Made by a program: the position numbers and the translations under genes. Positions 4,189-30,800 of a DNA stretch of 64,000 nt are shown here, piece by piece. Each line of letters opens with the position of its first letter. The stretch's first letter is position 1. Below the pieces are notes generated by a model. That model made no database searches. It saw only the letters and a list, made by a program, of their open reading frames with translations, and had not been told where the DNA came from. This stretch comes from Sthenelais limicola (Eukaryota > Annelida > Polychaeta > Phyllodocida > Sigalionidae), in NCBI GenBank assembly GCA_942159475.1, contig OW804099.1:15309999-15373998 (forward strand), written 5' to 3'.

Positions 4189-4803
4189 CGGGGAACCACT
4201 CTGGAATCTGGGGAACCACTCTGGAATCTGGGGAACCACTCTGGAATCTGGGGAACCACTCTGGAATCTGGGGGACCACTCTGGAATCTGGGGGACCACT
4301 CTGGAATCTGGGGGACCACTCTGGAATCTGGGGGACCACTCTGGAATATGGGGGACCACTCTGGAATCTGGGGGACCACTCTGGAATCTGGGGAACCACT
4401 CTGGAATCTGGGGGACCACTCTGGAATCTGAGGGACCACTCTGGAATCTGGGGGACCACTCTGGAATATGGGGGACCACTCTGGAATCTGGGGAACCACT
4501 CTGGAATATGGGGGACCACTCTGGAATCTGGGGAACCACTCTGGAATATGGGAGACCACTCTGGAATATGGGGAACCACTCTGGAATATGGGGGACCACT
4601 CTGGAATATGGGGAACCACTCTGGAATATGGGGGACCACTCTGGAATATGGGGGACCACTCTGGAATATGGGGGACCACTCTGGAATATGGGGGACCACT
4701 CTGGAATATGGGAGACCACTCTGGAATATGGGGGACCACTCTGGAATATGGGGGACCACTCTGGAATATGGGGGACCACTCTGGAATATGGGGGACCACT
4801 CTG
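4189..4803. repeat. 20-bp minisatellite
   Basis: About 30 units of CTGGAATATGGGGGACCACT, very regular in length. The left half mostly has ATCTG and the right half ATATG. As 20 is not divisible by 3 and the unit has no stop in several frames, it gives long open frames on both strands with a 20-residue period; these are artefacts. Confidence 0.95.
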
Positions 4804-5217
4804 ATTCACTCAGTTCAGCTTCTCCTGAGCAATAGCTAAGGTTTATTTCATCATCTTGGTCATTGCATTAGACTGAGTTCCCTGAGTCAGGCTTAATGGA
4901 TCACATATAGATCATATCAACAGTTTTTGTTTTGCATGCTTATATAATTGTTTATTACTCCACCCATTTATTACTGTGTATAAGTTGTAACATTGTATAC
5001 TCAATATGACAGGTTTGAATAACTGCACCCATATATTGCTGTGTTGTTTACAATTTGCTACATTGTATACACAATATTAAGATGAGATAATATACTACTT
5101 TATTTATCAAACTCACAGAGTACAATTATGAAGTGATGATTAAGATACAGATAAATTTGGTATACAGACTTCTGGATCAGATCCAGTTCTCCTGGACGTT
5201 ACCACATTATACCACAT
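4804..5217. other. Spacer between 20-bp and 65-bp arrays
   Basis: Unique A+T-rich sequence, apart from the isolated 65-bp-like copy at 4986-5077. No promoter motif could be named with confidence. Confidence 0.5.
4986..5077 (+). repeat. Isolated diverged copy of the 65-bp unit
   Basis: CATTGTATACTCAATATGAC, then AGGTTTGAATAACTGCACCC and CATATATTGCTGTG, resemble the array downstream but with substitutions and separated from it by about 140 bp of unrelated sequence. It probably marks an older edge of the array. Confidence 0.8.
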
Positions 5218-8200
5218 GAATACAGGTGTGAATTACTGCACCCATATATTGCTGTGTTGTGTACAATTTGCTACATTGTATACACAATATTACAGGTGTG
5301 AATTACTGCACAATTTGGTACATTGTATACTCAATATTACAGGTGTGAATTACTGTACAATTTGGTACATTGTATACTCAATATTACAGGTGTGAATTAC
5401 TGCACCCATATATTGCTGTGTTGTGTACAATTTGCTACATTGTATACACAATATTACAGGTGTGAATTACTGTACAATTTGGTACATTGTATACTCAATA
5501 TTACAGGTGTGAATTACTGCACCCATATATTGCTGTGTTGTGTACAATTTGCTACATTGTATACACAATATTACAGGTGTGAATTACTGTACAATTTGCT
5601 ACATTTTAAACTCAATATTACAGGTGTGAATTACTGCACCCATATATTGCTGTGTACAATTTGCTGCATTGTATACTCAATATTACAGGTGTGAATTACT
5701 GTGCAATTTGCTGCATTGTATACTCAATATTACAGGTGTGAATTACTGTACAATTTGCTACATTGTATGCTCAATATTACAGGTGTGAATTACTGCACCC
5801 ATATATTGCCGTGTACAATTTGTTACATTGTATACTCAATATTAGAGGTGTGAATTACTGCACCCATATATTGCTGTGTACAATTTGCTACATTGTATAC
5901 ACAATATTACAGGTGTGAATTACTACACCATTTGCTCCATTGTATACTCAATATTACAGGTGTGAATTACTGCACCCATATATTGCCGTGTACAATTTGT
6001 TACATTGTATACACAATATTACAGGTGTGAATTACTGCACCCATATATTAATGTGTACAATTTGCTCCATTGTATACACAATATTACAGGTGTGAATTAC
6101 TGCACCATTTGCTCCATTGTATACACAATATTACAGGTGTGAATTACTGCACCCATATATTGCTGTGTACTATTTGCTACATTGTATACACAATATTACA
6201 GGTGTGAATTACTGCACCATTTGCTACATTGTAAACACAATATTACAGGTGTGAATTACTGCACCCATATATTGCTGTGTACAATTTGCTGCATTGTATA
6301 CACAATATTACAGCTGTGAATGACTGCACCCATATATTGATGTGTACAATTTGCTGCATTGTATACACAATATTACAGCTGTGAATTACTGCACCCATAT
6401 ATTGATGTGTACAATTTGCTGCATTGTATACACAATATTACAGCTGTGAATTACTGCACCCATATATTGATGTGTACAATTTGCTGCATTGTATACACAA
6501 TATTACAGCTGTGAATTACTGCACCCATATATAGCTGTGTACAATTTGCTACTTTGTATACTCAATATTACAGGTGTGAATTACTGCACCCATATATTGC
6601 TGTGTACAATTTGCTGCATTGTATACACAATATTACAGGTGTGTATTACTGCACCCATATATTGCTGTGTACAATTTGCTACATTGTATACACAATATTA
6701 CAGCTGTGAATTACTGCACCCATATATTGATGTGTACAATTTGCTGCATTGTATACACAATATTACAGCTGTGAATTACTGCACCCATATATAGCTGTGT
6801 ACAATTTGCTACTTTGTATACTCAATATTACAGGTGTGAATTACTGCACCCATATATTGCTGTGTACAATTTGCTGCATTGTATACACAATATTACAGGT
6901 GTGTATTACTGCACCCATATATTGCTGTGTACAATTTGCTACATTGTATACACAATATTACAGGTGTGAATTACTGCACCCATATATTAATGTGTACAAT
7001 TTGCTCCATTGTATACACAATATTACAGGTGTGAATTACTGCACCATTTGCTCCATTGTATACACAATATTACGGGTGTGAATTACTGCACCCATATATT
7101 GCTGTGTACTATTTGCTACATTGTATACACAATATTACAGCTGTGAATTACTGCAACATTTGCTACATTGTATACACAGTATTACAGGTGTGAATTACTG
7201 CACCCATATATTGCTGTGTACAATTTGCTGCATTGTATACACAATATTACAGCTGTGAATGACTGCACCCATATATTGATGTGTACAATTTGCTGCATTG
7301 TATACACAATATTACAGCTGTGAATTACTGCACCCATATATTGATGTGTACAATTTGCTGCATTGTATACACAATATTACAGCTGTGAATTACTGCACCC
7401 ATATATTGATGTGTACAATTTGCTGCATTGTATACACAATATTACAGCTGTGAATTACTGCACCCATATATAGCTGTGTACAATTTGCTACTTTGTATAC
7501 TCAATATTACAGGTGTGAATTACTGCACCCATATATTGCTGTGTACAATTTGCTGCATTGTATACACAATATTACAGGTGTGTATTACTGCACCCATATA
7601 TTGCTGTGTACAATTTGCTACATTGTATACACAATATTACAGCTGTGAATGACTGCACCCATATATTGATGTGTACAATTTGCTGCATTGTATACACAAT
7701 ATTACAGCTGTGAATTACTGCACCCATATATTAATGTGTACAATTTGCTGCATTGTATACACAATATTACAGCTGTGAATTACTGCACCCATATATTGCT
7801 GTGTTGTGTACAATTTGCTACATTGTATACTCAATATTACAGGTGTGTATTACTGCACCCATATATTGCTGTGTACAATTTGCTACATTGTATACACAAT
7901 ATTACAGGTGTGAATTACTGCACCCATATATTGCTGTGTTGTGTACAATTTGCTACATTGTATAGTCAATATTACAGGTGTGAATTACTGCACCCATATA
8001 TTGCTGTGCACAATTTGCTCCATTGTATACACAATATAACAGGTGTGAATTACTGCACCCATATATTGATGTGTACAATTTGCTGCATTGTATACACAAT
8101 ATTACAGGTGTGAATTACTACACCATTTGCTACATTGTATACTCAATATTACAGGTGTGAATTACTGCACCCATATATTGCTGTGTACAATTTGCTACAT

Positions 8201-9818
8201 TGTATACTCAATATTACAGCTGTGAATTACTGCACCATTTGCCAAATTGTATACACAATATTACAGGTGTGAATTACTGCACCATTTGCTCCATTGTATA
8301 CTCAATATTACAGGTTGGAATTACTGTACAGTTTGCTCCATTGTATACACAATATTACAGGTGTGAATTACTGCACCCATATATTGCTGTGTACAATTTG
8401 CTACATTGTATACTCAATATTACAGGTGTGAATTACTGCACCCATATATTGCTGTGTACAATTTGCTACATTGTATACTCAATATTACAGGTGTGAATTA
8501 CTGCACCCATATATTGCTGTGTACAATTTGCTACATTGTATACACAATATTACAGGTGTGAATTACTGCACCATTTGCTCCATTGTATACTCAATATTAC
8601 AGGTGTGTATTACTGCACCATTTGCTACATTGTATACACAATATTACAGGTGTGAATTACTGCACCATTTGGTCCATTGTATACACAATATTACAGGTGT
8701 GAATTACTGCACCCATATATTGATGTGTACAATTTGCTGCATTGTATACACAATATTACAGGTTGGAATTACTGCACCATTTGCTCCATTGTATACACAA
8801 TATTACAGCTGTGAATTACTGCACCCATATATTGATGTGTACAATTTGCTGCATTGTATAAACAATATTACAGCTGTGAATTACTGCACCATTTGCTACA
8901 TTGTATACACAATATTACAGGTGTGAATTACTGCACCCATATATTGCTGTGTACAATTTGCTCCATTGTATACACAATATTGCAGGTGTGAATTACTGCA
9001 CCATTTGCTCCGTTGTATACTCAATATTACAGGTGTCAATTACTACACCATTTGCTCCATTGTATACACAATATTACAGGTGTGAATTACTGCACCCATA
9101 TATTGCTGTGTACAATTTGCTGCATTGTATATACAATATTACAGGTGTGAATTACTGCACCCATATATTGCTGTGTACAATTTGCTACATTGTATACTCA
9201 ATATTACAGGTGTGAATTACTGCACCATTTGCTCCATTGTATACACAATATTACAGGTGTGAATTACTACACCATTTGCTCCATTGTATAAACAATATTA
9301 CAGGTGTGAATTACTACACCATTTGCTCCATTGTATAAACAATATTACAGGTGTGAATTACTGCACCCATATATTGCTGTGTACAATTTGCTACATTGTA
9401 TACACAATATTACAGGTGTGAATTACTGCACCATTTGCTCCATTGTATACTCAATATTACAGGTGTGTATTACTGCACCATTTGCTACATTGTATACACA
9501 ATATTACAGGTGTGAATTACTGCACCATTTGCTCCATTGTATACACAATATTTCAGGTGTGAATTACTGCACCCATATATTGCTATGTACAATTTGCTGC
9601 ATTGTATACACAATATTACAGGTGTGAATTACTAAACCATTTGCTCCATTTTATAAACAATATTACAGATGTGAATTACTACACCATTTGCTCCATTGTA
9701 TACACAATATTACAGGTGTGAATTACTACACCATTTGCTCCATTGTATACTCAATATTACAGGTGTGAATTACTACACCATTTGCTCCATTGTATACACA
9801 ATATTACAGGTGTGAATT
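5218..9818 (+). repeat. 65/47-bp minisatellite ending at the first coding exon
   Basis: About 4.6 kb, roughly 75 units. Long units are 65 bp, with a 70-bp variant having TGTGTTGTGTAC; short ones are 47 bp and lack the CATATATTGCTGTGTA part. Every unit contains AATATTACAG|GTGTGAATT, which looks like a 3' splice site plus exon start. The last copy runs straight into the start codon at 9825. Larger blocks are repeated too: the 260 bp from 6489 recurs from 6749, and a similar block begins at 7428. Open reading frames seen in it are not genes. Confidence 0.95.
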
Positions 9819-9824
9819 GCCAAA

Positions 9825-9888
9825 ATGTGGGTGAAGATCCTGACGTTGCTGCTTTTGCTTTGGATGATAAACAGACTGAATGCATCAG
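9825..9888 (+). CDS. Exon 1: start codon and signal peptide
   Basis: ATG at 9825 has A at -3 and A at -4. It encodes [20 protein letters not shown], a positively charged start followed by a leucine-rich core, a clear secretion signal. The donor TCAG|GTAAAG at 9889 leaves phase 1, matching the CCP exons. A second donor, AT|GTGAGT at 9904, also leaves phase 1 and would add five residues. The exon may begin at 9810, after the 3' splice-site-like TATTACAG that closes the upstream 65-bp array. Confidence 0.75.
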
Positions 9889-12800
9889 GTAAAGAGGAAT
9901 CATGTGAGTACCATGCCATTCATTTGTTCTAGCGGGTTTTGTGCAATTAAATAGGTTGTCATGGTAAACGATTCATTAAGTTTACAATTCTTAAGTCCCA
10001 TCTCAATTCATATTCAGGTTTGTAACCATGAGCCAAACCAAACTGAATATACATCTTGCTGAAAACCAACCTCTAAATATTTACCTACTAGCAAGTTTTG
10101 TTTGGCTGTACTTATTTAACTTAACCACTGCCTTGGAAGCCTTGGGGTTATAAGTGATTGCTACAGAGATTAAAAGAATTAATGACCTCCGTTATGGCCT
10201 GCTGCTGTTTTGCCTCTAGACTATACCCCAATAAGTGCAAGCCGAAAGTTGAGGGGTTGTTGATGCACTTTTTGGTGTATAATCCAGAAATAGAGGTTAT
10301 TAATCTATTTAATCTCTGCCTAAGGTGGTTATATCCCAAGACTTTCAAGGCAGTGAGTAATTGTGCATAATCCCTCCAACTATGCACCAAAGATGGCTCC
10401 TCAATGCTGGTTATTAATCCTTTAAAACATTTAGGTTTTTTAGCATCTAGAAATGATTGTGCTTTGATTAATTACCCTCCTGTTTGTAATACATAACTAT
10501 TTGAAGAATTTAAACAATACAACATAATTATTGTATCAATTGAGCTTCTTTTCAAATGGTCAGATTCATATTGGAATTATGAATTTAATATTATTCAATA
10601 TAGTATAAATATTGATTTAGAGCACAAGCATGAACTCAAATAACACGCCTGAATTACTGAAGCCTTGGTTACACAAGTGTAATTCTCCCTATTCTTGATA
10701 GCGCAACCTAGCTTTTCTAGGTTTGCTAAGGCGGGAGCTTCCAGTAATGGCACCTGCAACCTAAGAAATTTAGTAGGCCTAAAATGGCTCGGGCTCTACT
10801 CTTTCAAATATGTAAAATTATATACCTACGGATAGCTGAGAATATACTCTTTTCATATTTTTTATCCTGTGACCATCTTTACATTTTTGGTTGGTGTTAT
10901 CACCGTTCTCGCGGGTGGTGGCCGGCGCGAACACATTAACAGGTTCCGTCTCAGCCTACTGGGAGATATTTCAGCATACAGCTCTACTGGTGTTAAATTC
11001 ACATGCTATCTGGCTAGCTGGTTTCAGCAGAATTCTTAATGACTGATTGTTCTATTGTAGATTGCACTGTGGATGACTTACATCCAGGGCTGAGGTATGA
11101 TGGGAAGGAGCCTGGAGTTTACTCATTCAGACTGTGGGCCTTCATCTCTGTGCGCTGTTACGGCAGGTATGAAGACCAGCAGGTCATGATCACCTGTATT
11201 AGACACAGGACATGGAGCGCTGTATATCCTCCCTGCAATGGTTTGTTACAGTTTCATTATTTGTTGTCAATCTTGATATAGACTGGTGTGTGTTTCAACA
11301 TTTGGATGTATTTTTTTGTCTACATGAAAGCTAGATTTGCGACTTACTTATGCACCCTTAACTGTTGCAGTCAATTCTTACAATCACAGAGGTTGTTTAC
11401 TTTGGACTTGATAATCATTATAGTTATGTCCCAATTATATAACATTGTGTAGTCACTGTACCAACGCCTGTCTCCGTAATTCATATTACGCGGATACAAG
11501 ATTGCAGAAGGTGAGATCAGTGCCTCTGTGTTTTCTTCCAATTATAGTTAAATGAATGGTTTAATATGAATCTGAATCGGCACATCTCTTACAATATTGT
11601 TTAGCAATAGTATGGTTTGGCGGATTTGATATTAGACCATTCATTTAACCACAATTGAAAGATAACCCCTTGTATCCACATAATTTGAATTACGGAGACA
11701 GGTGTTGGTACAGTGGTAGTGATCCTCGTGGTTGAACTTGGGATTGTAACCTGCTGAAGTTGTGCCTGCCTCGATAGCTCAGTGGTTAGAGCATTAGAAC
11801 CTTAATCCAAATGTCTGGGGTTTGGTTCCCTGTCCAGGCAAGGGCATTTCTCAGCAGGTTCACTACAACTGCATGATTAATTATGATTTATTATTAATTT
11901 AACATTAAATCTATACTTAAGAGTATTTTTTATAAATCTTTACATTAGAAGTATATGCACATTAAGATAGAACTCAACTTCAGATGGATTCCAAGGTTCC
12001 GGAAAACAGGAAAACAACGTACTTGTGGTTTGTGAATGTGTCACCCTATATCCATCTCAAGTTGAGTTTTATTTTAATGCCATGATATTTATATTAGCCA
12101 TATTTAATCATTATAACCTTAACTTAATGTCTCACAACCCTCCCACTCTCCAAAAGCAAGTCCCTACAAAGTTGTGTCATTGATTGTCGCAATTAGATTT
12201 ACGTAACCCATCGAAATAGGGAAGTAAATTGGTTACATTTGGAAAGCGGATTCCACTAGTGAAATCTATGCATTGGCTAATCTGGCCCTCTTGGTTTAAA
12301 ATATTTTAGCCTCCGTTGTTCCCTTTTTGTGGGTGCTTTGATTCACAATAAACACCTGTGTCTGCATAACCAACAAGGGTTGCTATAGGGCAAGAGCAAT
12401 GTTGGCGGGACCTAGTGACTACTGCAGTAATCACCAGTCCTCTTTTGGTGTGGCCTATATGGTGGGCAGCACAGAGGCCACACAGAGGCCCCAGTTATTC
12501 AAAAGCAGTGTAACTAAAGTACATTGGAATGTTTATCACTCGACCATTCATCAACACTAAAATGGTAAATCTGAAGACAATATAAGATTGTAGGACGTTA
12601 CATATGAAGGTATGGTGAAAATACATGTTGTAGCATTAATTGATGGAGGAAACGGGAACAACAAAGCATTATTTCCCTGTGTTTAGCCCTAGCTGGTACT
12701 ATGGTCCATTATACCCTCTCGGGCAAAACACGTCAGGAAATAACGCTTAAATTCTAAGCTTTTACTGCTATGTTTCTGTTTGATTATAGTAGTTATGACA

Positions 12801-15800
12801 TCTCAGGTGATATGAAATACATGTGTATCACATCTTCATGCAATAATAAGATAAAAATGACCAAGGGATAGAGCAGGAAGCCATATCGTAATGTGGCCGA
12901 GGTAATAGCACACACGGTTATATACAGAAGCCAAGCAACGATACAGAATTCCACGTAGTCCCAGAGATTTCTTGTATTTATTTCACCGTCACTAATCAAA
13001 ATGTACTGGAGTATGACAGATTTATTGATGAAATTAAATTCATGTTCATCATGTTTTTGATTTTTTTTAACAAATTTTATTCAGGTTGATATAACGGCAT
13101 GGCCGTGTTTAAATGCAACTCGGGTCAGACCCGGTCTTCCTTTGCACCCTGAATTATTAGGCTGACGTTGATGTTTTTTATTACATCATGACGCCGGTTA
13201 TGACTCCTGTTATGACGCACTATTTTTACACACTGTTTTTTCCGACTGGTGAGGGTCAGGACTGTATGTTAGAAGTTAGAACGCCAAATTATCTAATTCT
13301 GTACTGTCATGTACATTTGTTTTGCTTGCTGTTTTTCAGTTAATTACTCTATTAAACATATTCAATTATTTCTTATTTAATTCTGTGACGCATTTGTGCG
13401 TTATAATATTATTATTGTTAGAGAACTATATTCATTCCATATCCGCTTGAGGCCTGATATGACCATCATATCAGCCGCAGATCTTAGTTCTGCTCTCGGT
13501 GTTTCCTCAATGGTCCATGCGTATTGACCACATTCAAAGGTGAAATAATATATATATTTTTATCTTCCACCAGATGTGCTGTGTGACTCGCCCAAGCTGC
13601 CCCCCACTGCAGCAGTAGTGATGGGATGGGGTGTTGGAGACAATGCTACAGTCACCTGTAGGGAAGGCTTCTGGTACAATGGTACCAACCCTACAGTGTG
13701 TCAGGAGGACAGGACCTGGAGTGGAGTCATAGGCACATGTAATGGTATGGGCTTAAATATACTTTATTCACTGCTTTCATCAGTCCTGGGGCCCGCTGCT
13801 CCGCATTCCTGCTAACTATTTCCCCTTTGAAAGTGTATGGAGAAATAGTTCACAAGAAAGCGAAGCAACGGGCCCCAGGCTGGGAATATAATCACCTTAG
13901 ACAGCAGCTAACATGGTTAATAACCTAAATCTTGAAAATTATGTCTGCACAATGCACATGCAGTCCTTGATGTACGCCCTTACTGATACTGGCAGTTCAC
14001 TATATTTCCTGAAGTAATCTTTATCATCATTATTTAGTTATTATTTAAAAGCTTGTATTTGCCTTATCTGTCCATTGTAAAGTAGGTAGACCATCTCTAT
14101 AATCAAGCAGACAGATACAACATGTTTTTGTTCATATTGCCCCTTTAGGTTAATGGTCGATTACACAATGATGAAGGAGTCCCATTAACAAACTACTACT
14201 AAATTTATGAGAAACATAAATCCCACCTTTAATTGTTCTTCTGATGTTGTTGCTATACAACCAATATCAAATCCCTCATCTATCAAATAGCGTAACTCGA
14301 GATAAATAGGGGAATTGCATGTGCCACTGTGCATGCCTGTCACAGTGCATCCTTGGATGGATTCTGATGAAACCTGATATACAAATAATTTGCAACATTT
14401 TTACAAAAAATTGCAAGAATGTTTTCACCAATATCTTAGCTTGTATAAATGATCTATGAACATCAAATGCATGATGAGAAAGATGGGGACTTGTGTCATG
14501 GACACATGTATAACACATGAATATTGACATTAGAGCATTGATAAATAGTCCATGCTGAACATGGCATGTTTTCTATAGATTTTATACTGTACCATTAGTC
14601 CCATTATTCCATGCGAAACAAGATTCAAAATGGCGGCTATGCAACTCCCCTATTTAGGGGTAACATAATATAACTTAAAATTGTACCATACAAAATTCAG
14701 ATTAATAGTAGTTTAGTGAAGAATACACTGTATTCAAATACAAAATTATCTGGTCTAAAGTTTCTCTGTATCTACACTTGTACTAGCTGTGCGATGTCCT
14801 CCACTACAAGCTCCATTGTTTGGTAGCATCAGGCCTGGGCCTCCCTACAAGTACAATATCACAATACAGGTCAAGTGTGAGACTGGATACATCCATGTTG
14901 GCTCTCCTCTACTGCACTGTCAGGGTAACAACACATGGCATGGTACTGTTGGTACATGTACAGGTAAGTCTCTCCTCTACTGCACTGTCAGGGTAATAAT
15001 ACATGGCATGGTACTGTTGGTACATGTACAGGTAAGTCTCTCCTCTACTGCACTGCCAGGGTAACAACACATGGCATGGTACTGTTGGTACATGTACAGG
15101 TAAGTCTCTCCTCTACTGCACTGCCAGGGTAACAACACATGGCATGGTACTGTTGGTACATGTACAGGTAAGTCTCTCCTCTACTGTACTGTCAGGGTAA
15201 CAACACATGGCATGGTACTGTTGGTACATGTACAGGTAAGTCTCTCCTCTACTGTACTGTCAGGGTAACAACACATGGCATGGTACTGTTGGTACATGTA
15301 CAGGTAAGTCTCTCCTCTACTGCACTGCCAGGGTAACAACACATGGCATGGTACTGTTGGTACATGTACAGGTAAGTCTCTCCTCTACTGTACTGCCAGG
15401 GTAATAATACATGGCATGGTACTGTTGGTACATGTACAGGTAAGTCTCTCCTCTACTGTACTGTCAGGGTAACAACACATGGCATGGTACTGTTGGTACA
15501 TGTACAGGTAAGTCTCTCCTCTACTGTACTGCCAGGGTAATAACACATGGCATGGTACTGTTGGTACATGTACAGGTAAGTCTCTCCTCTACTGTACTGC
15601 CAGGGTAATAACACATGGCATGGTACTGTTGGTACATGTACAGGTAAGTCTCTCCTCTACTGTACTGTCAGGGTAATAACACATGGCATGGTACTGTTGG
15701 GACATGTACAGGTAAGTCTCTCCTCTACTGTACTGTCAGGGTAACAACACATGGCATGGTACTGTTGGTACATGTACAGGTAAGTCTCTCCTCTACTGCA

Positions 15801-18800
15801 CTGTCAGGGTAACAACACATGGCATGGTACTGTTGGTACATGTACAGGTAAGTCTCTCCTCTACTGTACTGTCAGGGTAATAATACATGGCATGGTACTG
15901 TTGGTACATGTACAGGTAAGTCTCTCCTCTACTGTACTGTCAGGGTAACAACACATGGCATGGTACTGTTGGTACATGTACAGGTAAGTCTCTCCTCTAC
16001 TGTACTGTCAGGGTAACAACACATGGCATGGTACTGTTGGTACATGTACAGGTAAGTCTCTCCTCTACTGTACTGTCAGGGTAATAATACATGGCATGGT
16101 ACTGTTGGTACATGTACAGGTAAGTCTCTCCTCTACTGTACTGTCAGGGTAACAACACATGGCATGGTACTGTTGGTACATGTACAGGTAAGTCTCTCCT
16201 CTACTGTACTGCCAGGGTAACAACACATGGCATGGTACTGTTGGTACATGTACAGGTAAGTCTCTCCTCTACTGTACTGTCAGGGTAACAACACATGGCA
16301 TGGTACTGTTGGTACATGTACAGGTAAGTCTCTCCTCTACTGTACTGTCAGGGTAATAATACATGGCATGGTACTGTTGGTACATGTACAGGTAAGTCTC
16401 TCCTCTACTGTACTGTCAGGGTAACAACACATGGCATGGTACTGTTGGTACATGTACAGGTAAGTCTCTCCTCTACTGCACTGTCAGGGTAACAACACAT
16501 GGCATGGTACTGTTGGTACATGTACAGGTAAGTCTCTCCTCTACTGCACTGCCAGGGTAACAACACATGGCATGGTACTGTTGGTACATGTACAGGTAAG
16601 TCTCTCCTCTACTGTACTGTCAGGGTAATAATACATGGCATGGTACTGTTGGTACATGTACAGGTAAGTCTCTCCTCTACTGTACTGTCAGGGTAACAAC
16701 ACATGGCATGGTACTGTTGGTACATGTACAGGTAAGTCTCTCCTCTACTGTACTGTCAGGGTAACAACACATGGCATGGTACTGTTGGTACATGTACAGG
16801 TAAGTCTCTCCTCTACTGTACTGTCAGGGTAATAATACATGGCATGGTACTGTTGGTACATGTACAGGTAAGTCTCTCCTCTACTGTACTGTCAGGGTAA
16901 CAACACATGGCATGGTACTGTTGGTACATGTACAGGTAAGTCTCTCCTCTACTGTACTGCCAGGGTAACAACACATGGCATGGTACTGTTGGTACATGTA
17001 CAGGTAAGTCTCTCCTCTACTGTACTGTCAGGGTAACAACACATGGCATGGTACTGTTGGTACATGTACAGGTAAGTCTCTCCTCTACTGTACTGTCAGG
17101 GTAATAATACATGGCATGGTACTGTTGGTACATGTACAGGTAAGTCTCTCCTCTACTGTACTGTCAGGGTAACAACACATGGCATGGTACTGTTGGTACA
17201 TGTACAGGTAAGTCTCTCCTCTACTGCACTGTCAGGGTAACAACACATGGCATGGTACTGTTGGTACATGTACAGGTAAGTCTCTCCTCTACTGCACTGC
17301 CAGGGTAACAACACATGGCATGGTACTGTTGGTACATGTACAGGTAAGTCTCTCCTCTACTGTACTGTCAGGGTAACAACACATGGCATGGTACTGTTGG
17401 TACATGTACAGGTAAGTCTCTCCTCTACTGCACTGTCAGGGTAACAACACATGGCATGGTACTGTTGGTACATGTACAGGTAAGTCTCTCCTCTACTGCA
17501 CTGCCAGGGTAACAACACATGGCATGGTACTGTTGGTACATGTACAGGTAAGTCTCTCCTCTACTGTACTGCCAGGGTAACAACACATGGCATGGTACTG
17601 TTGGTACATGTACAGGTAAGTCTCTCCTCTACTGTACTGTCAGGGTAATAATACATGGCATGGTACTGTTGGTACATGTACAGGTAAGTCTCTCCTCTAC
17701 TGTACTGTCAGGGTAACAACACATGGCATGGTACTGTTGGTACATGTACAGGTAAGTCTCTCCTCTACTGCACTGTCAGGGTAATAATACATGGCATGGT
17801 ACTGTTGGTACATGTACAGGTAATTCACTTCATTCAATTCGGTTCATTCACTTTTTCCAGTTGAATAGAGGCATAGATCATGTGAAAATTCACAAAATGA
17901 ATTAAAATAATAATCATAGCAACAGTTAATACTACTTGTATTAAAATACATAAGTAACGATAAAAGTCACAATTATGTTGTTTTATTTCTTGTGGCGCCT
18001 GTATATCAATCTGTAGGATTATTATCACAGTAAATCAAACTTAATGCTTAATACCATTGGTAGAGTATTTGTTTGAAAAATGTTAGTAACAAAGCTGCAC
18101 ATTGTGTTAGATATAGAATAATATTATGCTAAATGTCACATTATGTTATATTATATATATATATATAAACCTTTCTGGTATGAAATCAAACTGATCTTTA
18201 ATCTGCCCCGCATTTAGTATTATAGTAGAAAATATTTGAGTAAAATTATCAACAGGTTTGATACTGCTTCAGATGATAGTTTCAAACTAGTACATCAACA
18301 TAGCTCATAAAGCACACCATGCAACACCTAGTGCACTCCCTGATATTCCTTTTGAACATCCTTTTAAAGGCTGGCTTTACTTGACAATTCCTTCTTGTAA
18401 ATTTGTGTTGACGTTTCAAATACTAATGAGTGTATACTGATTTCCCTGCAGAGAAAGATACAATTCGCTGCATAGTGAAGGACATAGAGAGGGATATTGT
18501 TACTCCTAACATCACTGAAGGTAGATATGGAGAAGCAATAACAGTTGCCTGTGAGACAGGCTTTGTATACACTGGCTCCCAGAATAGCACTTGTCAAGCA
18601 GATGGTACATGGTCTGGCAGCTCAGGGACATGTGAGAGTGAGTAGTTTTGGATAGTTTGACTGGGTAATGTCTGAGATATCTAATGGCACATGTGTGTAA
18701 GAGCAATCTACTCTCTCTCTGTAAGGGTTGGGTTGTGTGTTTGATAGATAATATTCTTGTTAACAGTTGTACCAACTGACATACATATTTCACATTTAGT

Positions 18801-21800
18801 TGAAAACTGTTTAGAATGCAGTTTATTGTCCTCAATCGACCTGCAGAGTGTTTAAGTATCTCCTGATAGATGCAGAAGTTGTATTTCGGTGGCTATTCTT
18901 CTATATGTAATAATATACAAGAGTGTTTTGGGAAGTCTGACACCACAGGTGATGCAAGAATACAGTTTATTGTCCTCAAAGACATCAATCTAAGTTAGAT
19001 ATGTTCTGATACTGCAATCATCATCGAGGGTGTTGCTGATTCAGACTATTTGTACACATGTTCCTGACTCATCTTTATAATTCAGTTATCAACTGCCAAC
19101 CGTTTGATGATGTCGTTGATAAGACTGCAGGTAATGTCTCACCAGTATTTTCCTAAATAATATTTGTATTATAAGTGGTAGATTGAGGTAGATTGCTTTA
19201 TATGTTATTTGTAAACCGCTCCTGACCTGAAAGCCTGTCTAATTTCATGAATAAAGACACGGTGCTGGGGGAGGGGGGGGGGGGAATCAAACTTGTTGAT
19301 GTTGTTTATATTATATTATATAAATATATTATTATTCACTTGATTTGAGCGATTTCTCCTCCTTCAGGTGATTTTGGAATGATATTTATTATCAGTCCGC
19401 CTAAGGTCATAAGGTACTAAGGCAACCAAATTGTTAAACAAATGTACACAAAATTGTGCATAATAGTATTAATTATCAATGAGCTGATCTAATCAATATT
19501 ATTAAAGTTTCACATGTCCCTTATAGCGTGGAAAGGCATAGACATGATATGGATGCTGCAGCATCGAGTACATGGTAGCAGTCTGACAACTGAACAAACC
19601 TTGTTGATTAACCTTGTGTATGGAGATGTGGTAGAGGTGAGATGTCCTGCTGGATATGTGTACAATGGAACCTCATTAGTCTGTGGTGAACTTGGGCTGT
19701 GGAATGGTACACGAGGAGCATGCACAAGTAAGTGCTATTTCTGTTCACTTTCTTGTATGATAACTTTTGTATAATTTTGACAAGCACAGAAACGTGTGTA
19801 GTAGAGGTAGCAGACAGAAATGGATCAATTGTATGCAAAACATCCCTAAATAGTTGTATTATTAATTACAACTATATGTATTCTTACCATACCATATAAT
19901 AGTAATATTATATAAATAAAGAATGGGACAGGATCGTTCTCCAATGGAGGTCTTCCGAGTAGCCCTTTTAAATTAAACATTACAATAAACACTGTAAATA
20001 AACTATCAGTAGTACAGTTTTGTTCATACAATGTTCATACAATATTGCGTTGACATTATTTATTTAGTGAAAAGTAATGTGGTTCATTTAAATTTACAGT
20101 TGTAGCGCACAGACAGAAAATTTAACCTCTACATGTACTGGTAGATTGTTAACATAAACTAAGTTTCCTCGTCCTGTACTGGTTGGGAGTGTGCTAAATA
20201 ATACATAACAACTTCGAATCTTGAAATTAGTTGTCTCGTCTTAGACTTGTCGAGAGTATGGTAATGCCATTATAGGAAATTACCCTTAATGGGTCCTTAA
20301 TAGTTATATCGGCCTTAGGGCACATGTCTTACATGCCTGTTTACTTCCCCCCTTCCCCCTTTGCCCCCCGACTCAACGGTTTCAAATAGCGTTATAGTTG
20401 TACTTCAGTTTTGATTACATTGTTGTGATACTTGGTATCCCTTGTTTACATTGTTGTGATATTTGATATCGCACATAAAATACTTTGGTGTACATAAAAT
20501 ACTTTGGTGTAATATGTGTCATAATATTTGCAGTATTTGTATTCCTTCACAGGGTTAAGACAATACGTTAGTTAACGTTTCATACAATTAACAATAGTTG
20601 TAGAACAGGAGTATAAATTTATTTCAAGTCTTGAAGATTTATTCTTTCAAATAAACATCAAATTCCTTGGGGTAGGAAGATTTTAGGTAGGTCCTAAACT
20701 CCTTTTTATCTTTAATGTTTGTAGGATTGGCTGGTAAGCCAAATCCTAGAAACATAAACCCCAGGTTAACATTAACCCCAGATTAACATTAACCCCATAT
20801 TAACTACTTGTGTGGTACTATCATACTGCACCACTAGGAGGAGGAGAGGGTATTTGATCCCACAAATAATGCCATTCACTTTGTCGGCACTATAATATTG
20901 TTTTTCACTCTGATCCTAGATAATATCAAATTTCTGAAATATGATGTTAATATCAGTGCTGTACACATATGTTTTATTGGTATCCATAGCAGCAATGCAT
21001 TAGGGTATATCATGTATTGTTTTACTTTATTACTGAAAGCTGTACATCATTTAAATTGTTATATAACTCAGGCCCCCCGGCTAGCTAGGTGGAATGGAGA
21101 CACAAGACTGGAGTGGGTTCAGTGGGACGAAAGGCTTGTAGGCCGACCTCCCCTTTATTAAAATAAGGTATTGGGGAGGGGGGAATAAATAGGCATGTAA
21201 GTCCTATCGCTAAGGCCGGCTCATCGGCAAACTGTGGGAAGGGAGGGGAGACATGTTATTGAATTGTTAATTGATTGTACAACTACCAAACCATCAGTTA
21301 TAGAAATGTTACGTTATAAAATTGTAAGTCCACCAGTATAAGATAGGACGGAATGGAATAAGTGCAGTATTCGCAAAAAATCACTCCAATAAATCCTTCC
21401 AGTATAGGACGGAACTGAAATTGATTAATTATGATGATTTCTTTTTTTGTTTGTTTTTACAAACGACTTTATTTATTGACACCTGCCATCTGGGCTTCTA
21501 CAGTTCTAAAGACAATTCAAATATATCAAGAGAGGAATAATAAGGTTAACACTTCAAGGAATTTGTGGTTTCAGATATACCTTCAGCCATACGCCGCCAT
21601 ATTATTTTTTCTTCTCTACTTGTTTTTTTGAAATTAAAAGAATATATGACCATGTTACATCTCATACGGAGTTCATACATTGCTGAAAGGGTATCTATAA
21701 AGCCATTAGCAAATAGCTTCTGCCTATATATGAAGGACTTTACCTGTAGAATAATCCAGTTAATTATTTTAGAGTTAACATTCGTAATTTCCACACCAAA

Positions 21801-24800
21801 AATAACTTCGATAGGTTTTATTACTATATGTTTACCTCTTTGATTTAAAATCATTCTATCATTACCATCCTTATTCAGAAAACCACTTTCGTATATCCAT
21901 TTAAAAATGTTCAGCCACAACTCTTTGGTCTTTTGACATTGAACCAAAAAATGAACTATGTCATCTTTTTTCTTGCAAAAGGAACATGTATCCTTTTTTA
22001 TAACATCGATTTGTTTGAGATATGCATTACAAGTCAATACTCATTGGAGAATTTTAAATTGGAAGACATGTATTCTAGCCTCAGTAGAGGCTTTTATGAT
22101 GATTTCTTAAGCTCAAAGGTAATTTTATCCAAAGAAACGGGCACTGTCCAGTAAAGGGCATGTGTACAAATAAATGGTTTTGGAGGATCCCATAAATATA
22201 CAGTAATATTTTACTGAAATATTGTTATAACGCTACAAAGGATAATAGTTGTATGTAATACATTGTGTATGAATAAACCAGTGAATCGTTGTCTAAGGAA
22301 TATAGAAATGATGTGTAATAACACTATCTGATCAAGGACTGTTAAATTATAGAATAAGGAACTAATGTAAAAGTAATACCACTGTGATGTATAGATACAA
22401 GCTCTATTTAATAATCGAGAAAGAAAGAACAATGTTTAAATTTGATTTCAAGTAGTCGCTATCGACTAATCAACTAAGGACAACATGGAATCAAGACCAA
22501 CAGGAAAAAATAATGAATTCTAAAACCTTCAAGGAGTTATCGCCGTCCGAAAAGTTCCAAAACAGTCACAGAAAACTTAGCAGGAGATATCTTATATAAG
22601 TCTTCTCCTAACCAGGACTGGTCATAATTTAACACTAATATTCATCAACACCAACGAAAGACTATTTACACACCCAATTTATGGGGCGAACTTAATCAAA
22701 GACATTATTCTCTTTTCTTTATGAACGTAAACTCACATCTGATATTACATTTATTTGTTAAAATCATTGCTTGTTTATTAAAGGGCTACCAGGAAGATCT
22801 CCAGTGGAGAGGGAGCACTGGCCCTATTCTTATTGTCATTATGTACATGTATATGCTGATATGGAATAAAAGTTGTATAATAATAATAACTTGAAACAAA
22901 ACAATTCAAATTCAGTGAAAAAGAATTTTTTTTTCAACAAGTGTACAGTAGAAGTGCAGCTAGCTGAATGAGAGTGTGCCCTGAGTTGGGGTTCACACCT
23001 CTGGCTGCAGAGTCAATGAGAGTAGTACAGGTGATTGGCAAAGGTGATTGGCAATTGAAGAGCCTTCTTTGGCCCTAGTTATAATCTCCTCCGCAGGCCT
23101 CGCTTGAGGAGGATAATAACTCAGGCCCCCCGGCTAGCTAGGTGGAATGGAGACACAAGACTGGAGTGGGTTCAGTGGGACGAAAGGCTTGTAGGCCGAC
23201 CTCCCAGCCCACCCCCCAGCCGGAGGACGAAGGGCGAGAAGAAGTAAGCTCATGAGTAGGTGTTCAGATACAATGCAACTGACTTGTCTTTGACTAGGCG
23301 AGAATCGTGACTAGAAGACAAGTATAGGAGGACACTCAACGACCTCCAATCGCCATATTCCTTGATTTCATGAAGAGGCAGTCCGAGGTTACTCAAAAAT
23401 GTTGCAGATCCACGCCTCAGGCTATGGGAGTTGAAGTGACCCATAATGCCTGCAGAGGCCATAGAAGTCTTTAGGCGCCTGGCGAACCAAGAATATGTGA
23501 TCGGGCACTTAGAAGATGGTAGGCAAAAAATATAATCACTCTCACACAAACGTGATCGACGAAAATACACTTTCAGCCACCTCACAGGGCATAGTAGTGA
23601 AAGCGGCTAAGGGACTACTGGGATACGTAGAACACGCTCAGAGTGTTGAACTGTCTTAGAGGAAGTAATCAACACACACATCCCATAGCTAGTGAAGGAA
23701 ATGGTGCCGACCCTCAGCATATGTGGCGAATAAGTGTAGTGGCATTTGCGCAGAAGACATCTGAAGCCCAGGCAAACCGTGCACCAAAAGATCAAGTCTG
23801 ACAAACTCGTAAAGTCAAGCAGCCTGAAGATCATCAAGAGTTGGTTAGGCAAGAGGGGCTCAGCTTGACGTGTAGCATTACCCAGGAGGCGCTTGAAGCC
23901 CTTGATCGTGCATCTCACCATGAAGGAGTCTTTAGCCACAGGTTTGACATAAAAAAACCCATGCAGCGACCACAGGGCACTAAGGTAGTTTATGATTGAA
24001 GAGTAGCACAAATGGGTCGATAAATGGGTGAGATATAAGCGCACCATGTCTGAAGAAGCTGGCAAGGGGTCAAATGAGTAAGTGTCACAGAACTGGAAGT
24101 ATTTCTTCCACTGGCTCCGCCTTGTGGCCCAGGTTGAGGGGGCCCAACATAAGGTCTGAAGACGATTGCACTCGATTCTGAGGTCACATAAGGGCATCCC
24201 TACAACAGAATGAGAAGGCAAGTGGTAGACCGTAGGCATTGAAGTATTTTGAAGAAACAGATACCCTGGAGAGGGCGTCAGAGATGGTGTTGTCCTCTGA
24301 TGAAACACGGAAGGCTACCGTGCGAATGTTATAAATGGCACAAAGCCAGAAGTATTCACGAAGCAGTTGCATTGCTACCACACATGAGCTTTTGCCGGTC
24401 TGAATCATATACTCTACTTGAGTGTTATCAGTATAGATGTGAACTATCGAATCCTTAAAGCGGGAACACCAACGCTTAGATCCAGCCACTATGGGCCACA
24501 ATTCTTTAACATTAATACTTGAGTCTGCTACATTATCAGCCACAGGAGGGCAAATACAATGGTTACATGAGTAATAACAACCGGACCAATGCCCAAATAA
24601 ATAATCATCATCAACATAGGCGCCAAACCCAGTACCAGAAGCATCAGAGTACATTGTATAAGTTCATTACAATTCAAATTGTTACATTCATTGTTAAATA
24701 TTACATTCATTGTATAAATTCATTACAAATAATCTTAGCATTGCCATCAAAAACACGTAAAAAGGCCTTCCACCAAAGAAGGTCTGCTTTGACCAAATCA

Positions 24801-27800
24801 GTGATGTAGACACGACGTCTGTTTTTGGTGCGTTTAAGTAAACCATACATTCGTCTACAGAAGGTTCGCCCCCCATGTACCAAGGTGGCACAGTGAGCTG
24901 AATAACCAGTAAGAGGCTCAAACAATTTACGTTCACACCAACTCAAACTCAAGATTGAAGAAACCAATTCTTCTGCTTTAATAAGTTTACTTTCAGGTAA
25001 GCGAAGACACAGGGATTGCAAATCTATAATGACACCCAAATATTTTGGATTGGCCGATGGGGCCACAACTTTGCGGAAATTAATACAAAACCCTAAACAT
25101 CGTAAGGTAGAAATAAGTACAAGTTGTCTTTCGCTACAGCTTTGGAAGTTAGGGCCCGCCACAAAAAAATCATCTATGTAATTTAGACAGGTGATACCTT
25201 GTTTATGTAAAAGGCGAGCCACAAAATCGCTGACTGAACAAAAAATGTGTGGGGCCGATCGTAGGCCAAAACATAAGCAATTGTCAACAAATATATTATC
25301 AGTACCATTCAGGTTCCAACGGAAACCCTGATAACTCCTGTGAGGAGGAAATACATTGATTGAACGGTAGGCAGTAGCAATATCGACTACCGCCCCAAAC
25401 CCAAATTGATCTATCATACCAAAGGCGTCATCTATTCTACAAAAACTAAATTTGAGCGCAGTATCGAGCATGTAATCATTAATCGAAACATTAGGGCGTG
25501 AACAATCCGTAATAGGACACATTTTCCCATCTGTTTTAGCAATGGCCCCCATGGCGTGAATACATGTGGGGTGGTAATCAACAACAGAAACTTTACCACT
25601 ATGAAGTTCTGAAAAAACATTGGTACACATAAGGTCCGCCATCACGGGAACCAAAATAGAGTCATAATTTCTTTGGTCATAAGTACAAGAGATATCGTCA
25701 TCAACAATGCGAAAACCTCGACAAACACCATTCAAAACAAAGGTATCGGCATCTGAACATAAACCAGTAAGGCATAAGGCCGCCGCAACACGACACGGCT
25801 TTAGTTGAGTGGGAACATAGTCCAATAAGTAAATACACGAGCACGAACCAGCCATACATTCGCGCTTAACATGGACATATTGGTCAGAATAGACCCTAAC
25901 ACTACAAATATAATTAGCAGGAAGGTAAGGTAGTCTAACCTGTAAAGTCGGATCATATTCAGGTAAGGTGAAAAAGCAGTCAAAGCTCGGAGAACGTAAA
26001 TGTTTAGGTGTAACAATAACGGTAAGCCAGCCATGGCGGCCATCTTGACAAACAACATCCGGTTCCGGAACTTCCGCTTCCGCTAAACAAGCAAGGCTCG
26101 CAGCATTGAATTCTTGACCAATATGTTTACCAAAAACATCACAATCAAAGTCACCAAGACCATTACAGAGAGACATATTGGAGGCAGTATCATTTACATA
26201 GCATTCAGAAGCATAACCATCGTCAAATAATTCTAGATCACAACCAACACGATCGATATCGACAGTAGGTACATCGGCATAAGCATCAGCGCTCTCGGAA
26301 TGAAAAGTAAACAAACCCATGTGGCTGTCAAAACAAGCCTCCGCTTCACAACACACAGATTGACCGGTAGGTAGCTATGCTTTAGAAGCACTACAGTCAG
26401 CAGGTACATTACAATTTGGTTTAGCATGGCTAGAACTGAAACAATTTGAACATACGTGTGGCCAATGGCAGGTAACGGCAGTACAGCCGTCCCGATTGAA
26501 GTTGAAACAGTAAGAGCGTTACCCTTCTTGGTCTTAGACTTAGACTGAGTCTTAGTACCAGAGCGAGAGTACTCAGCCGAGAGAAACCTCATTGACAGGC
26601 CCAGGTCGCCAACAGAATAAGCTTTGAGCCCTATCAACTTCGCCCGTTCTCTCACAGCCTCATCATACTTGGCTATACCTGAAGACATGTAAACATTGGT
26701 GCTAGCCTTTTCGGCGATGCAACAGTTATGAGCCAACAACCCAGAAATATCATTACCCTTTTGGTATTCTTCGACTATTAAACTGCCATGGCAGAACCAG
26801 AGTTTATCAGTGGTGAAAAGCTTTGATCTTTCTTCCTTTGGTAAAAATCGTTTAATTTTAAACCTACGTTTTTTGTCATAGTCCTTCACACAAAGACTCT
26901 TCTTCGCTTTTCTGTTAGCAGGCTTGCGGTGAGGTGACAATAAACTAGATTCAGACGAGGAAGAAGTCAAGGCCTAGGAAGAAGAGGTTGAAGGGGTAGA
27001 AGATCGAGATGATTTCTTGCGTGAATGGCGACTACGCCTGGTAGCAGAACAGGAACACCGCCCGGACTTCGAGTGGTGTGACCGGCGAGTCATGCGAGCC
27101 ACACCCTTTCGGTGACCCGAAGCACGATGAGGGCTACTGAATGGGGAGCCATCACTGGAGCTCAACAACTTACGGGTGGGGCTTGTCAGTTTAGCAGCTC
27201 CCTGCTGCACAATTGTCGCCAACAAACCTTCTATGTTAGACAATTTATCCGCTGATGTTTTAGAGTCCACACGTAACTTGGTCATGTCGGCATTGATATT
27301 GGTTACAGAAGTCTTAACCAAGTCCAATTCATGCTGGGTGGGCCCACCCCATGCCCCTCCCTGAGGCATAGGCTTCGTAGGGCGCCTGGTATCATCCCTT
27401 TCCCTTGAAGAATGAATAGTACGATGGGTATCATCCCTTTCTTTCGAGGAATGAACGTCTACCTTAACTCGAGGGCCAGAAGGAGGTAAACCGAAAGTTG
27501 GTGTCTTTGGAGGAGGCAAACCAAAGGTAGAAGTGTCAGCCCGAAACCAGGAGTCGACGGGGCCATCAGTCACACCTAGGCCATGTGCCACCTCAGCCAT
27601 AGTTGGAGCTATGCCCAACTTCCCAACTTTTTCTTCAGCATAATCCGAAGGCTCAGAGATATTCCCAAATTCAACTAACTGACAGTTCTTACCCGTAGGA
27701 GGGTAGTGGCGGGTGCCACAATTAGCACACTGCTTTTGTCTTCCCATTTTAGTATCCTAGATAGGCACGAACAGAATTCACGAACAGTACTTTCCGAAAA

Positions 27801-30800
27801 AAATGTCAACAAGTGTACAGTAGAAGTGCAGCTAGCTGAATGAGAGTGTGCCCTGAGTTGGGGTTCACACCTCTGGCTGCAGAGTCAATGAGAGTAGTAC
27901 AGGTGATTGGCAAAGGTGATTGGCAATTGAAGAGCCTTCTTTGGCCCTAGTTATAATCTCCTCCGCAGGCCTCGCTTGAGGAGGATAATATATCTATATA
28001 TTTGAGACAAAAATTATGATAAATGCATAGAAATGAATATATCATAAAGCATGTGATCTTCAATAACCTCTACTTTGGTTTAATTAGGGATACAATGCAC
28101 TGAGCATATACAAGGACTGAATGGTGTGATAGAGGGAGCAGGGTACACATACACTGATACTGCCACCATTGTGTGTGATGAAGGCTACAGATGGGAGGGT
28201 AGTGTACCTCATGCTACCTGTACAGAAGATGGCACCTGGAAGCTGAATGGTGAATGCAAAGGTAAAAGCTATAAGTTGCTAAATATGCAAACTTATTCCA
28301 CACAAATATCAATATTATTTTTCTTTTATTATACATGCATTGCTCTGACAACAACGTATCTAGAGTGATTTACGCATAGCGCGTATTTCACTAGTGATTT
28401 ACATTCAAAATTCAAATTTATGACTCAATTTTTTTCTATTTTTATGATTGAAAGCATGTATAATAAATCTGTTAACTAACTTGTTGGTTTCAGTCGCTTA
28501 GAATATTGCACTCGTTGCTATGCAACTCATGCAATATTCAGGCTCCTTCAACCAACTCGTTAGTTAACCTGTATATATGCACATTCCATTCTTAGGCCTC
28601 AATACCCACTGAAAATATCAAATTTAATTCTAATTCACTTGACTCTATGGCATTGCACCAGGAAGAGGGAAACAATTTGGGAGAACATATATGCACATAA
28701 ATTGTTACATGTGTTTTGATGGCAGGGCATGTAAATATGAATGGTTCATGTTAGAACTTTGTGGCTCTTTAGATTCAATTTGTCCAATAGAACTCCTACC
28801 AAATGTCCCTAACACTGTGAACCAATTACAAATGATTTTAAAACACCCTCACTATTGGATTACCCCAAATATTCTCATGTCCTTTCATCATACAGGTTGA
28901 GAGTTCCCTCTTTTATTATTGGCAATGTTGACTATGCCAAAATGAAGCTATAATGATACAAATTAACAAAAACAACACTTTTCATTCAGGTTTACCATGC
29001 TATGATAACCCAGTATCCAATGGTCAGCTAGAAGGAAGTGAGCATGTGTACCCTGATGTAGTGAGCGTGATGTGTGATGAAGGCTACAGATGGGAAGGTA
29101 CCTCTCCTCATGCTGTCTGTACTGCTGATGGTACATGGACACTCAATGGTCAATGTAAAGGTTAGTATAATGTAGGCACCTCTCCTCATGCTGTCTGTAC
29201 TGCTGATGGTACATGGTCACTCAATGGTCAATGTAAAGGTTAGTATAATGTAGGCACCTCTCCTCATGCTGTCTGTACTGCTGATGGTACATGGACACTC
29301 AATGGTCAATGTAAAGGTCAGTATAATGTAGCTACCTCTCCTCATGCTGTCTGTACTGCTGATGGTACATGGACACTCAATGGTCAATGTAAAGGTTAGT
29401 ATAATGTAGGCACCTCTCCTCATGCTGTCTGTACTGCTGATGGTACATGGACACTCAATGGTCAATGTAAAGGTCAGTATAATGTAGCTACCTCTCCTCA
29501 TGCTGTCTGTACTGCTGATGGTACATGGACACTCAATGGTCAATGTAAAGGTTAGTATAATGTAGGCACCTCTCCACATGCTGTCTGTACTGCTGATGGT
29601 ACATGGACACTCAATGGTCCATGTAAAGGTTAGTATAATGTAGGCACCTCTCCACATGCTGTCTGTACTGCTGATGGTACATGGACACTCAATGGTCAAT
29701 GTAAAGGTTAGTATAATGTAGGTACCTCTCCTCTTGCTGTCTGTACTGCTGATGGTACATGGACACTCAATGGTCAATGTAAAGGTTAGTATAATGTAGG
29801 TACCTCTCCTCATGCTGTCTGTACTGCTGATGGTACATGGACACTCAATGGTCAATGTATAGGTTAGTATAATGTAGGTACCTCTCCTCTTGCTGTCTGT
29901 ACTGCTGATGGTACATGGACACTCAATGGTCAATGTAAAGGTTAGTATAATGTAGGTACCTCTCCTCATGCTGTCTGTACTGCTGATGGTACATGGACAC
30001 TCAATGGTCAATGTAAAGGTTAGTATAATGTAGGTACCTCTCCTCATGCTGTCTGTACCGCTGATGGTACATGGACACTCAATGGTCAATGTAAAGGTTA
30101 ATTCCTACTGATTTAGGCTTTTGAAAGCTTGATTATTCAGCTAGGGTGTCCATGGCTTTACAATCTCGTTCATTTATCACCAATATGCTTTACTTGTAAT
30201 TTATGAAGGTATCACATGTGTGGAGAAGACTATATCCAATGGTCTGCTAAAAGGCAGTGGCCATGTTTACCCTGATGTAGTGAGTGTGGCATGTGATGAA
30301 GGCTACAGGTGGGAAGGTACCTCTCCTCATGCTGTCTGTACTGCTGATGGTACATGGACATTCAATGGCCAATGTGAAGGTATATATATATGTTGGTTTT
30401 AGTGATCAACTTTGCCAAATAAGCCCTATTATATTTCACATTCCTCTTGTATCCTTTGCAAATGCAAATCATATATATTTCAATTTTACTGCTGACGACC
30501 TGGAACTTAAAACATGAACATTTTAGACATTACTATAAATGTGGCTATATAGAATTAAATTAGATATACATTGACTTTTCATTGAGACTAGAACTTAGAC
30601 AATATTGCCTATTTTGTACTTTCTTCAGGTGTCCCCAGAACAGCTTTGACTATTATTTTGCCTGTGTCATTGGTAGTCATAGTAGTTATCTGCATTACTA
30701 TGTTGATATGTTTCTCAAGGTGAGTATATTTAAACAGATTCCTCTCTTATTCCATACTTGATCAGTTACTTTCAGCTTTTTGTAATCACACATGTGTGCC

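Follow-up and report, generated by a model that had tools for sequence, protein, structure and literature searches.

Repeats at exon–intron boundaries

The globin genes of amphioxus carry minisatellite-like tandem duplications of their exon–intron boundaries, termed 'mirages' after the case of Adh3, credited to Canestro et al. in 2002 (PMC3087553). A 64,000-nucleotide stretch of contig OW804099.1, the window of this report, contains repeated boundaries of the same kind within a gene modelled as a sushi-domain surface protein. The largest at a donor site, array 1, comprises 43 copies of a 68-bp unit, nearly all of them with a perfect 5' splice site. We consider it likely that array 1 is a mirage, a neutral minisatellite of the boundary that is tolerated since exon definition picks the donor nearest to the exon's own acceptor.

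According to the passages of PMC3087553 on which we draw, mirages affect either the donor or the acceptor side; their units range from 10 to 160 bp; the core of a cluster undergoes concerted evolution, and its edges are distinct. Globin mirages occur in BflGb6 and BflGb9, one haplotype of BflGb6 having 6 units and another 3; reverse transcription PCR suggests that regular splicing proceeds undisturbed. PGBD5 has mirages as well: across two assemblies, a 60-bp unit is present 2 or 7 times and a 108-bp unit 3 or 6 times. The portion of that report used here (PMC3902484) notes that Adh and troponin C have duplicated splice sites yet no aberrant mRNA, and draws the same conclusion for PGBD5. All the mirages in these accounts come from lancelets.

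Set beside these descriptions, arrays 1 and 2 of the sushi gene look familiar: the unit spans the boundary, the genuine exon is intact, and only the copy adjacent to the exon is needed. The unit of array 1 joins 62 terminal exon bases to 6 intron bases, GTAAGT, and that of array 2 joins 64–65 exon bases to ~14 of intron, the exons being those of our model. Unit lengths of 68, 78 and (array 3) 47/65 bp fall within the range given in PMC3087553. The cores are homogenized, array 1 with 97% matches and an 11-unit block present twice, and the edges are distinct, with an edge-unit type in array 1 and terminal donors, GTAATT and GTTAAT, that end the two arrays. Arrays 1 and 2 are clearly on the donor side; array 3 would be on the acceptor side, its neighbour being a putative acceptor. 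With 43 and 13 copies, arrays 1 and 2 outnumber the mirages of BflGb6 and PGBD5, to which this comparison is confined; we claim no size record over Adh3 or troponin C. Unlike the mirages described in those sources, every internal copy of array 1 has a perfect 9-nt donor, and the gene has two, probably three, arrays. The kind, then, is already in print, and what is notable is the size, the uniformity of the donors and the recurrence within one gene. If the host is not a lancelet, mirages extend beyond lancelets; if it is, one more mirage gene joins the list.

The donor array of the CCP-3 exon

The gene model consists of exons joined at AG/GT sites within the one window, and rests on sequence. 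It spans 9825–30719 of the forward strand, the strand of its exons and of arrays 1 to 3, and it may continue beyond 30719. The reconstructed open reading frame encodes 543 aa, with a signal-peptide-like start, sushi domains (CCP-1 to CCP-8, one of which occupies two exons) and an exon that looks transmembrane; the first and last of these parts were assigned by eye. All CCP exons are phase 1-1. The Pfam Sushi profile matches the model with an E-value of 1.2e-53 in six passing stretches, against a count of eight CCPs from the exons, and its best stretch, residues 142–196, lies within the fourth coding exon, the CCP-3 exon (14787–14963). This exon carries the first copy of the repeat.

Tandem Repeats Finder places array 1 at 14902–17823, with a period of 68 bp, 43.0 copies and 0% indels. 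One copy is the genuine end of the exon and the other 42 are intronic, all of equal length; counted from the first donor, 14964–17819 amounts to exactly 42.0 × 68 bases. GTAAGT occurs 42 times within 14901–17900, at 14964 + 68k for k = 0 to 41, and the 43rd unit start, at 17820–17825, reads GTAATT. At 42/42 of the former the exon side completes CAG|GTAAGT, which is complementary over all 9 nt to the 5' terminus of U1 small nuclear RNA (snRNA). Beyond the array, the whole 64 kb has this 9-mer at just two places, one on the + strand (54175) and one on the – strand. Duplex energies, for which we used the U1 snRNA sequence as generally known, are –12.1 kcal/mol for CAG|GTAAGT and –8.1 kcal/mol for the terminal GTAATT. 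A gene, it appears, may bear kilobases of exon-like repeat.

The acceptor that partners the donors of array 1 begins the CCP-4 exon (18452–18637), and the junction 14963|18452 joins the two exons in phase 1 with an open frame. The CCP-3 exon is 177 nt long; the second donor would lengthen it to 245 nt and the third to 313 nt. When all the array 1 donors are joined to 18452, 1/43 escapes a stop, the first; with the remaining 42, translation would end ~30 residues past the exon end (one donor) or ~33 (41 donors). The initial annotation, made from the sequence alone, had described the unit of ~62 exon bases plus GTAAGT, the 42 strong donors and a last GTAATT, the junction 14963|18452, the single productive donor and the absence of drift in unit length; its donor array, coordinates, copy number and one frame-keeping donor were right. 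It missed arrays 2 and 3, and the duplication within array 1 itself.

That duplication becomes visible when units are compared. The 42 intronic units vary at only 5/68 positions (C/T at four, each shared, and a private T>G at the fifth), and make up nine unit types in mosaic order. Units 14–24 (15848–16595) equal units 25–35 (16596–17343), exactly, in order and in sequence: a higher-order duplication (15848–17343) of 11 units, or 748 bp, the like of which arose in 0/20000 shuffles of unit order. The first and last intronic units share one type, which is absent from the other 40. Such a pattern is what unequal exchange with sheltered edges would leave; an assembly duplication would give the same block.

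Could the array be, in part, an artefact—a shorter array, or an allelic pair, with the copy number inflated and the 748-bp block a misjoin? We regard this as unlikely. The block is certainly repeated without a single difference, and PMC3087553 mentions one amphioxus mirage that looks aberrantly assembled in the genome draft. Against this, the nine unit types are intermingled within the array; second and third arrays, built of different units, stand at exon boundaries of the same gene; and exact, recent block duplication is ordinary, as a matter of general knowledge, for minisatellites.

The sequence of the units says little about selection. In the exon frame, four of the five variable sites fall on the third base of a codon (P ~0.04 among the 62 exonic positions), but as a sign of selection this is not convincing, resting as it does on five sites, and in array 2 there are changes of amino acid instead. 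Nothing can be concluded from the constancy of the 9-nt donor: with only 5 variable positions, it is expected by chance in ~48% of cases. Nor, in our judgement, is the constant unit length evidence of function; it is normal for a homogenized minisatellite.

Two further arrays in the same gene

Array 2 (29096–30100; 78-bp unit, 12.9 copies by Tandem Repeats Finder) follows the CCP-7 exon (28990–29160), another phase 1-1 exon, whose end is its first copy and whose terminal bases make up the exonic part of the unit; the intronic part is GT[T/C]AGTATAATGTA. Its donors match the consensus at 7/9 bases, and the terminal donor, at 30097, is GTTAAT. By eye, arrays 1 and 2 start within ~6 bases of the same sushi codons, those for Ser-Pro before the third cysteine. 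Here, too, only the first donor (1/13) keeps the frame, and the other 12 lead to a stop at the boundary itself. The units of array 2 include donor variants and amino-acid-changing variants. Two have GTCAGT in place of GTTAGT; the in-frame TAG is thereby lost, and reading continues into the next unit.

This last observation bears on whether the units might be translated, in some isoforms, as repeated half-sushi segments. The read-through of the two GTCAGT units and the third-codon-position bias in array 1 are what such a coding repeat might display, but stops follow 42/43 donor choices in array 1 and 12/13 in array 2, and the variants of array 2 include amino-acid changes. We think the idea extremely improbable, and a full-length reading through either array is excluded by the stops.

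Array 3 (~4985–9819, up to 4.8 kb) lies at the other end of the gene. Its 47/65-bp units contain CAATATTACAG|GTGTGAATT; Tandem Repeats Finder reports it in rows covering 5263–9818, and 73 exact CAATATTACAG cores occur in 5285–9799. Scattered first copies begin at ~4985 by eye (blastn matches from 4991), and a non-repeat stretch intervenes near 5080–5220. The last copy enters a putative acceptor, with the exon starting at 9810, 15 bases 5' of the ATG of the first exon. The coding part of this exon (9825–9888, donor at 9889) specifies 21 residues, hydrophobic, by eye, like a signal peptide. Position 9810 may be the acceptor of the first coding exon, or, alternatively, a start of transcription. 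Should that acceptor be used, two exons of the one gene would be followed by donor arrays and a third preceded by an acceptor array.

Within 9825–30720, arrays 1 and 2 are the only arrays of >=4 copies that Tandem Repeats Finder detects, and each of them crosses a donor. When one unit of 68 or 78 bp was placed at random 20000 times, it overlapped one of the 11 donors in 2.8% or 3.1% of the trials, respectively, and a donor or an acceptor in 5.9% or 6.4%. The presence at CCP-7 of a second array of the same make-up, and of a third at a putative acceptor, would support the view that array 1 is a mirage.

How the right donor might be chosen

The gene is unharmed if the donor of the first copy is used, because that copy is the genuine exon end. 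Factors bound at the exon's own acceptor would pair with the nearest U1-bound donor, the first, and the remaining donors would depart with the intron, either ignored or giving rise to low-level transcripts with early stops. The introns that flank the CCP-3 exon are long, 1042 and 3488 nt, and exon definition is therefore probable for this exon; it is the most likely way, we think, in which the first donor is chosen. The initial annotation implied a puzzle in the choice among identical donors. The donor array is real, but the puzzle has a general answer in print: in the results of PMC9225289 drawn on here, exon definition favours the upstream one of near-equal competing donors in long introns. 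Five minigenes in that study contained two identical CAG/guaagu donors with flanking introns of 365 nt, and the upstream donor was used exclusively. Array 1 resembles these constructs: the same 9-mer, CAG|GUAAGU, competes for one downstream acceptor, and the introns are long enough for exon definition.

Several points weigh on the other side. The minigenes of PMC9225289 had two competing donors, whereas array 1 has 43; they were transfected into cells, and the data are human. Without a filter for donor strength, ~60% of the events in that study prefer the downstream donor, and when both donors were weakened, constructs with larger exons underwent exon skipping. PMC3087553 itself says that mirage copies could serve as cryptic sites. 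Array 2 is the harder case: its donors are weaker, the last of them would leave short introns, 190 nt from the last strong donor (30019) and 112 nt from the terminal one, and intron definition there could favour the wrong donors. Exon definition in the source organism is assumed, and the case for use of the first donor is built on DNA rather than RNA. The test of association between arrays and donors was post hoc, moreover, and part of the association would follow from selection alone, acting against arrays that lie entirely within exons.

The arrays might, instead, be useful to the cell. Spare donors could act as decoys or as a rheostat, with a fraction of transcripts, dependent on copy number, being frameshifted and destroyed so as to tune the level of the receptor between individuals. 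Wrong donors do bring stops in 42/42 cases in array 1 and 12/12 in array 2; agreement with the 9-nt consensus is 9/9 bases for the donors of array 1 and 5–8 for the other modelled donors of the gene; and one gene has two donor arrays. But the donor of the transmembrane-like exon (30629–30719), at –12.6 kcal/mol, is as strong in its U1 duplex as those of array 1, chance accounts for the invariance of the 9-mer about half the time (~48%), array 2 carries both donor and amino-acid-changing variants, and the published mirages are reported, in the passages cited above, as not disturbing splicing. A rheostat strikes us as quite unlikely, a little more so than an assembly artefact, and neutrality as the better guess.

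Be that as it may, array 1 is a natural construct in which 42 identical 5' splice sites, and a weaker last one, compete. Together the two donor arrays could test exon definition against intron definition in vivo, since every donor of array 1 would leave an intron of >=632 nt and the last donors of array 2 introns of only 112–190 nt.

Origin and growth

If array 1 is a mirage, it would have begun with the tandem duplication of a short stretch of exon–intron boundary, 62 exon bases and the start of the intron. Unequal exchange would then have extended the array into intron 4 and homogenized it, the genuine exon end persisting as the first copy. The exact 11-unit duplication is consistent with such growth, as are the edge units, which look as if they had been spared homogenization.

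Introns may also arise by tandem duplication. Zhuo, in 2007, and Gao and Lynch, in 2009, reportedly described intron gain by this route and arrays from which introns are bred. Among the systems that we compared as being of the intron-gain type, in so far as the excerpts used here describe them, are variable tandem repeats at human exon–intron boundaries (PMC2812944) and the potato RdRp gene (PMC4974935). Array 1 is like these in that its tandem duplication carries AG|GT, and unlike them in that non-repeat intron follows the array, and in that the intron is in phase 1 like its neighbours. The repeat therefore sits inside an intron that already existed. From the last donor (17820) to the acceptor at 18452 is 632 nt, in which Tandem Repeats Finder found no further copies; intron 4 was not created by the array, because so much intron follows the last copy. 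An intron gained by tandem duplication would have repeat copies at both of its ends, and we reject that origin here.

A related notion is that every ACAG|GTAAGT boundary serves as acceptor and donor at once, and that the array is removed recursively, in steps of 68n nt, or is breeding new introns. CAG|GTAAGT is present at all 42 boundaries, removal of whole units would leave the mRNA unchanged, and mirages have, in PMC3087553, been proposed as sources of introns. However, the AG at the boundary has a poor pyrimidine tract, 0.53 versus 0.59–0.82 at ten modelled acceptors, and the 632 nt of intron beyond the last copy again fit badly. Each consensus unit does hold a better candidate, an internal CAG preceded by a tract rich in pyrimidines (0.76, a value in the range of the modelled acceptors), but its use, in the one unit tested, yields a 40-nt piece with an immediate stop. 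We judge recursive splicing very unlikely. Boundary minisatellites may be a source of new introns, or of alternative isoforms, for a sushi-domain surface protein.

The ends of the arrays invite one speculation. All internal donors have G at +5 (42/42 GTAAGT in array 1; 12/12 GTYAGT in array 2), and the terminal GTAATT and GTTAAT lack it and are weaker, in U1 duplex energy, by 4.0 and 4.5 kcal/mol, respectively. Perhaps duplication created, at its joints, donors of greater strength, and a mirage persists only if the new donor, next to the exon, beats the old one downstream—a filter acting at birth. This presupposes that the terminal donor is the ancestral one, and there are two cases only; we are doubtful. 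Immediately beyond array 1, intron and unit agree at 9/12 bases (mismatches at +5, +8 and +11), which would also fit a terminal copy that has decayed; the flank of array 2 matches its unit to +4 only. The boundary of the CCP-8 exon (30209–30379), for its part, matches that of CCP-7 for 17 bases into the intron (blastn), in a stretch that is AT-rich. This could mean that the intron bases of the unit are ancestral, and it leans, weakly, toward decay of the terminal copies. Were the filter real, such arrays would record competition between splice sites in evolution.

Neighbouring features

Repeats of other kinds precede the sushi gene. Minisatellites occupy 675–1248 (31 bp × 18.5), 2527–3203 (~106/133 bp) and 4190–4803 (20 bp × 30.7), and in the last of these several frames are open, on both strands. 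A search for proteins related to two joined CCP exons found none among 2 candidates. Downstream of the sushi and transmembrane exons, an open reading frame (ORF) at 37877–38473 encodes a NACHT domain (Pfam E-value 1.1e-10) and may belong to the sushi gene; a protein search with a NACHT exon piece found 1 relative, of 41% identity, among 52 candidates.

In the intron that separates CCP-1 from the first exon, 11768–11840 matches the tRNA family of Rfam (RF00005, 45.8 bits), and ARAGORN found no tRNA there; the adjoining sequence, ~11450–11730, looks by eye like an inverted-repeat element.

On the minus strand, two clusters of retroelement-like ORFs lie at 21546–27756, within an intron of the modelled sushi gene, and at 32035–35699; by their appearance, these are likely tyrosine-recombinase elements, DIRS- or Ngaro-like. 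The reverse-transcriptase ORF at 24710–26374 has at least 50 matching proteins, at least 49 of them with Pfam domain PF00078, among 7996 candidates scored. At 46720–55592, also on the minus strand, gag/pol-like ORFs belong to what is presumably a Gypsy/Ty3-like retroelement, and a 12-bp repeat (47513–47586) lies within an ORF there.

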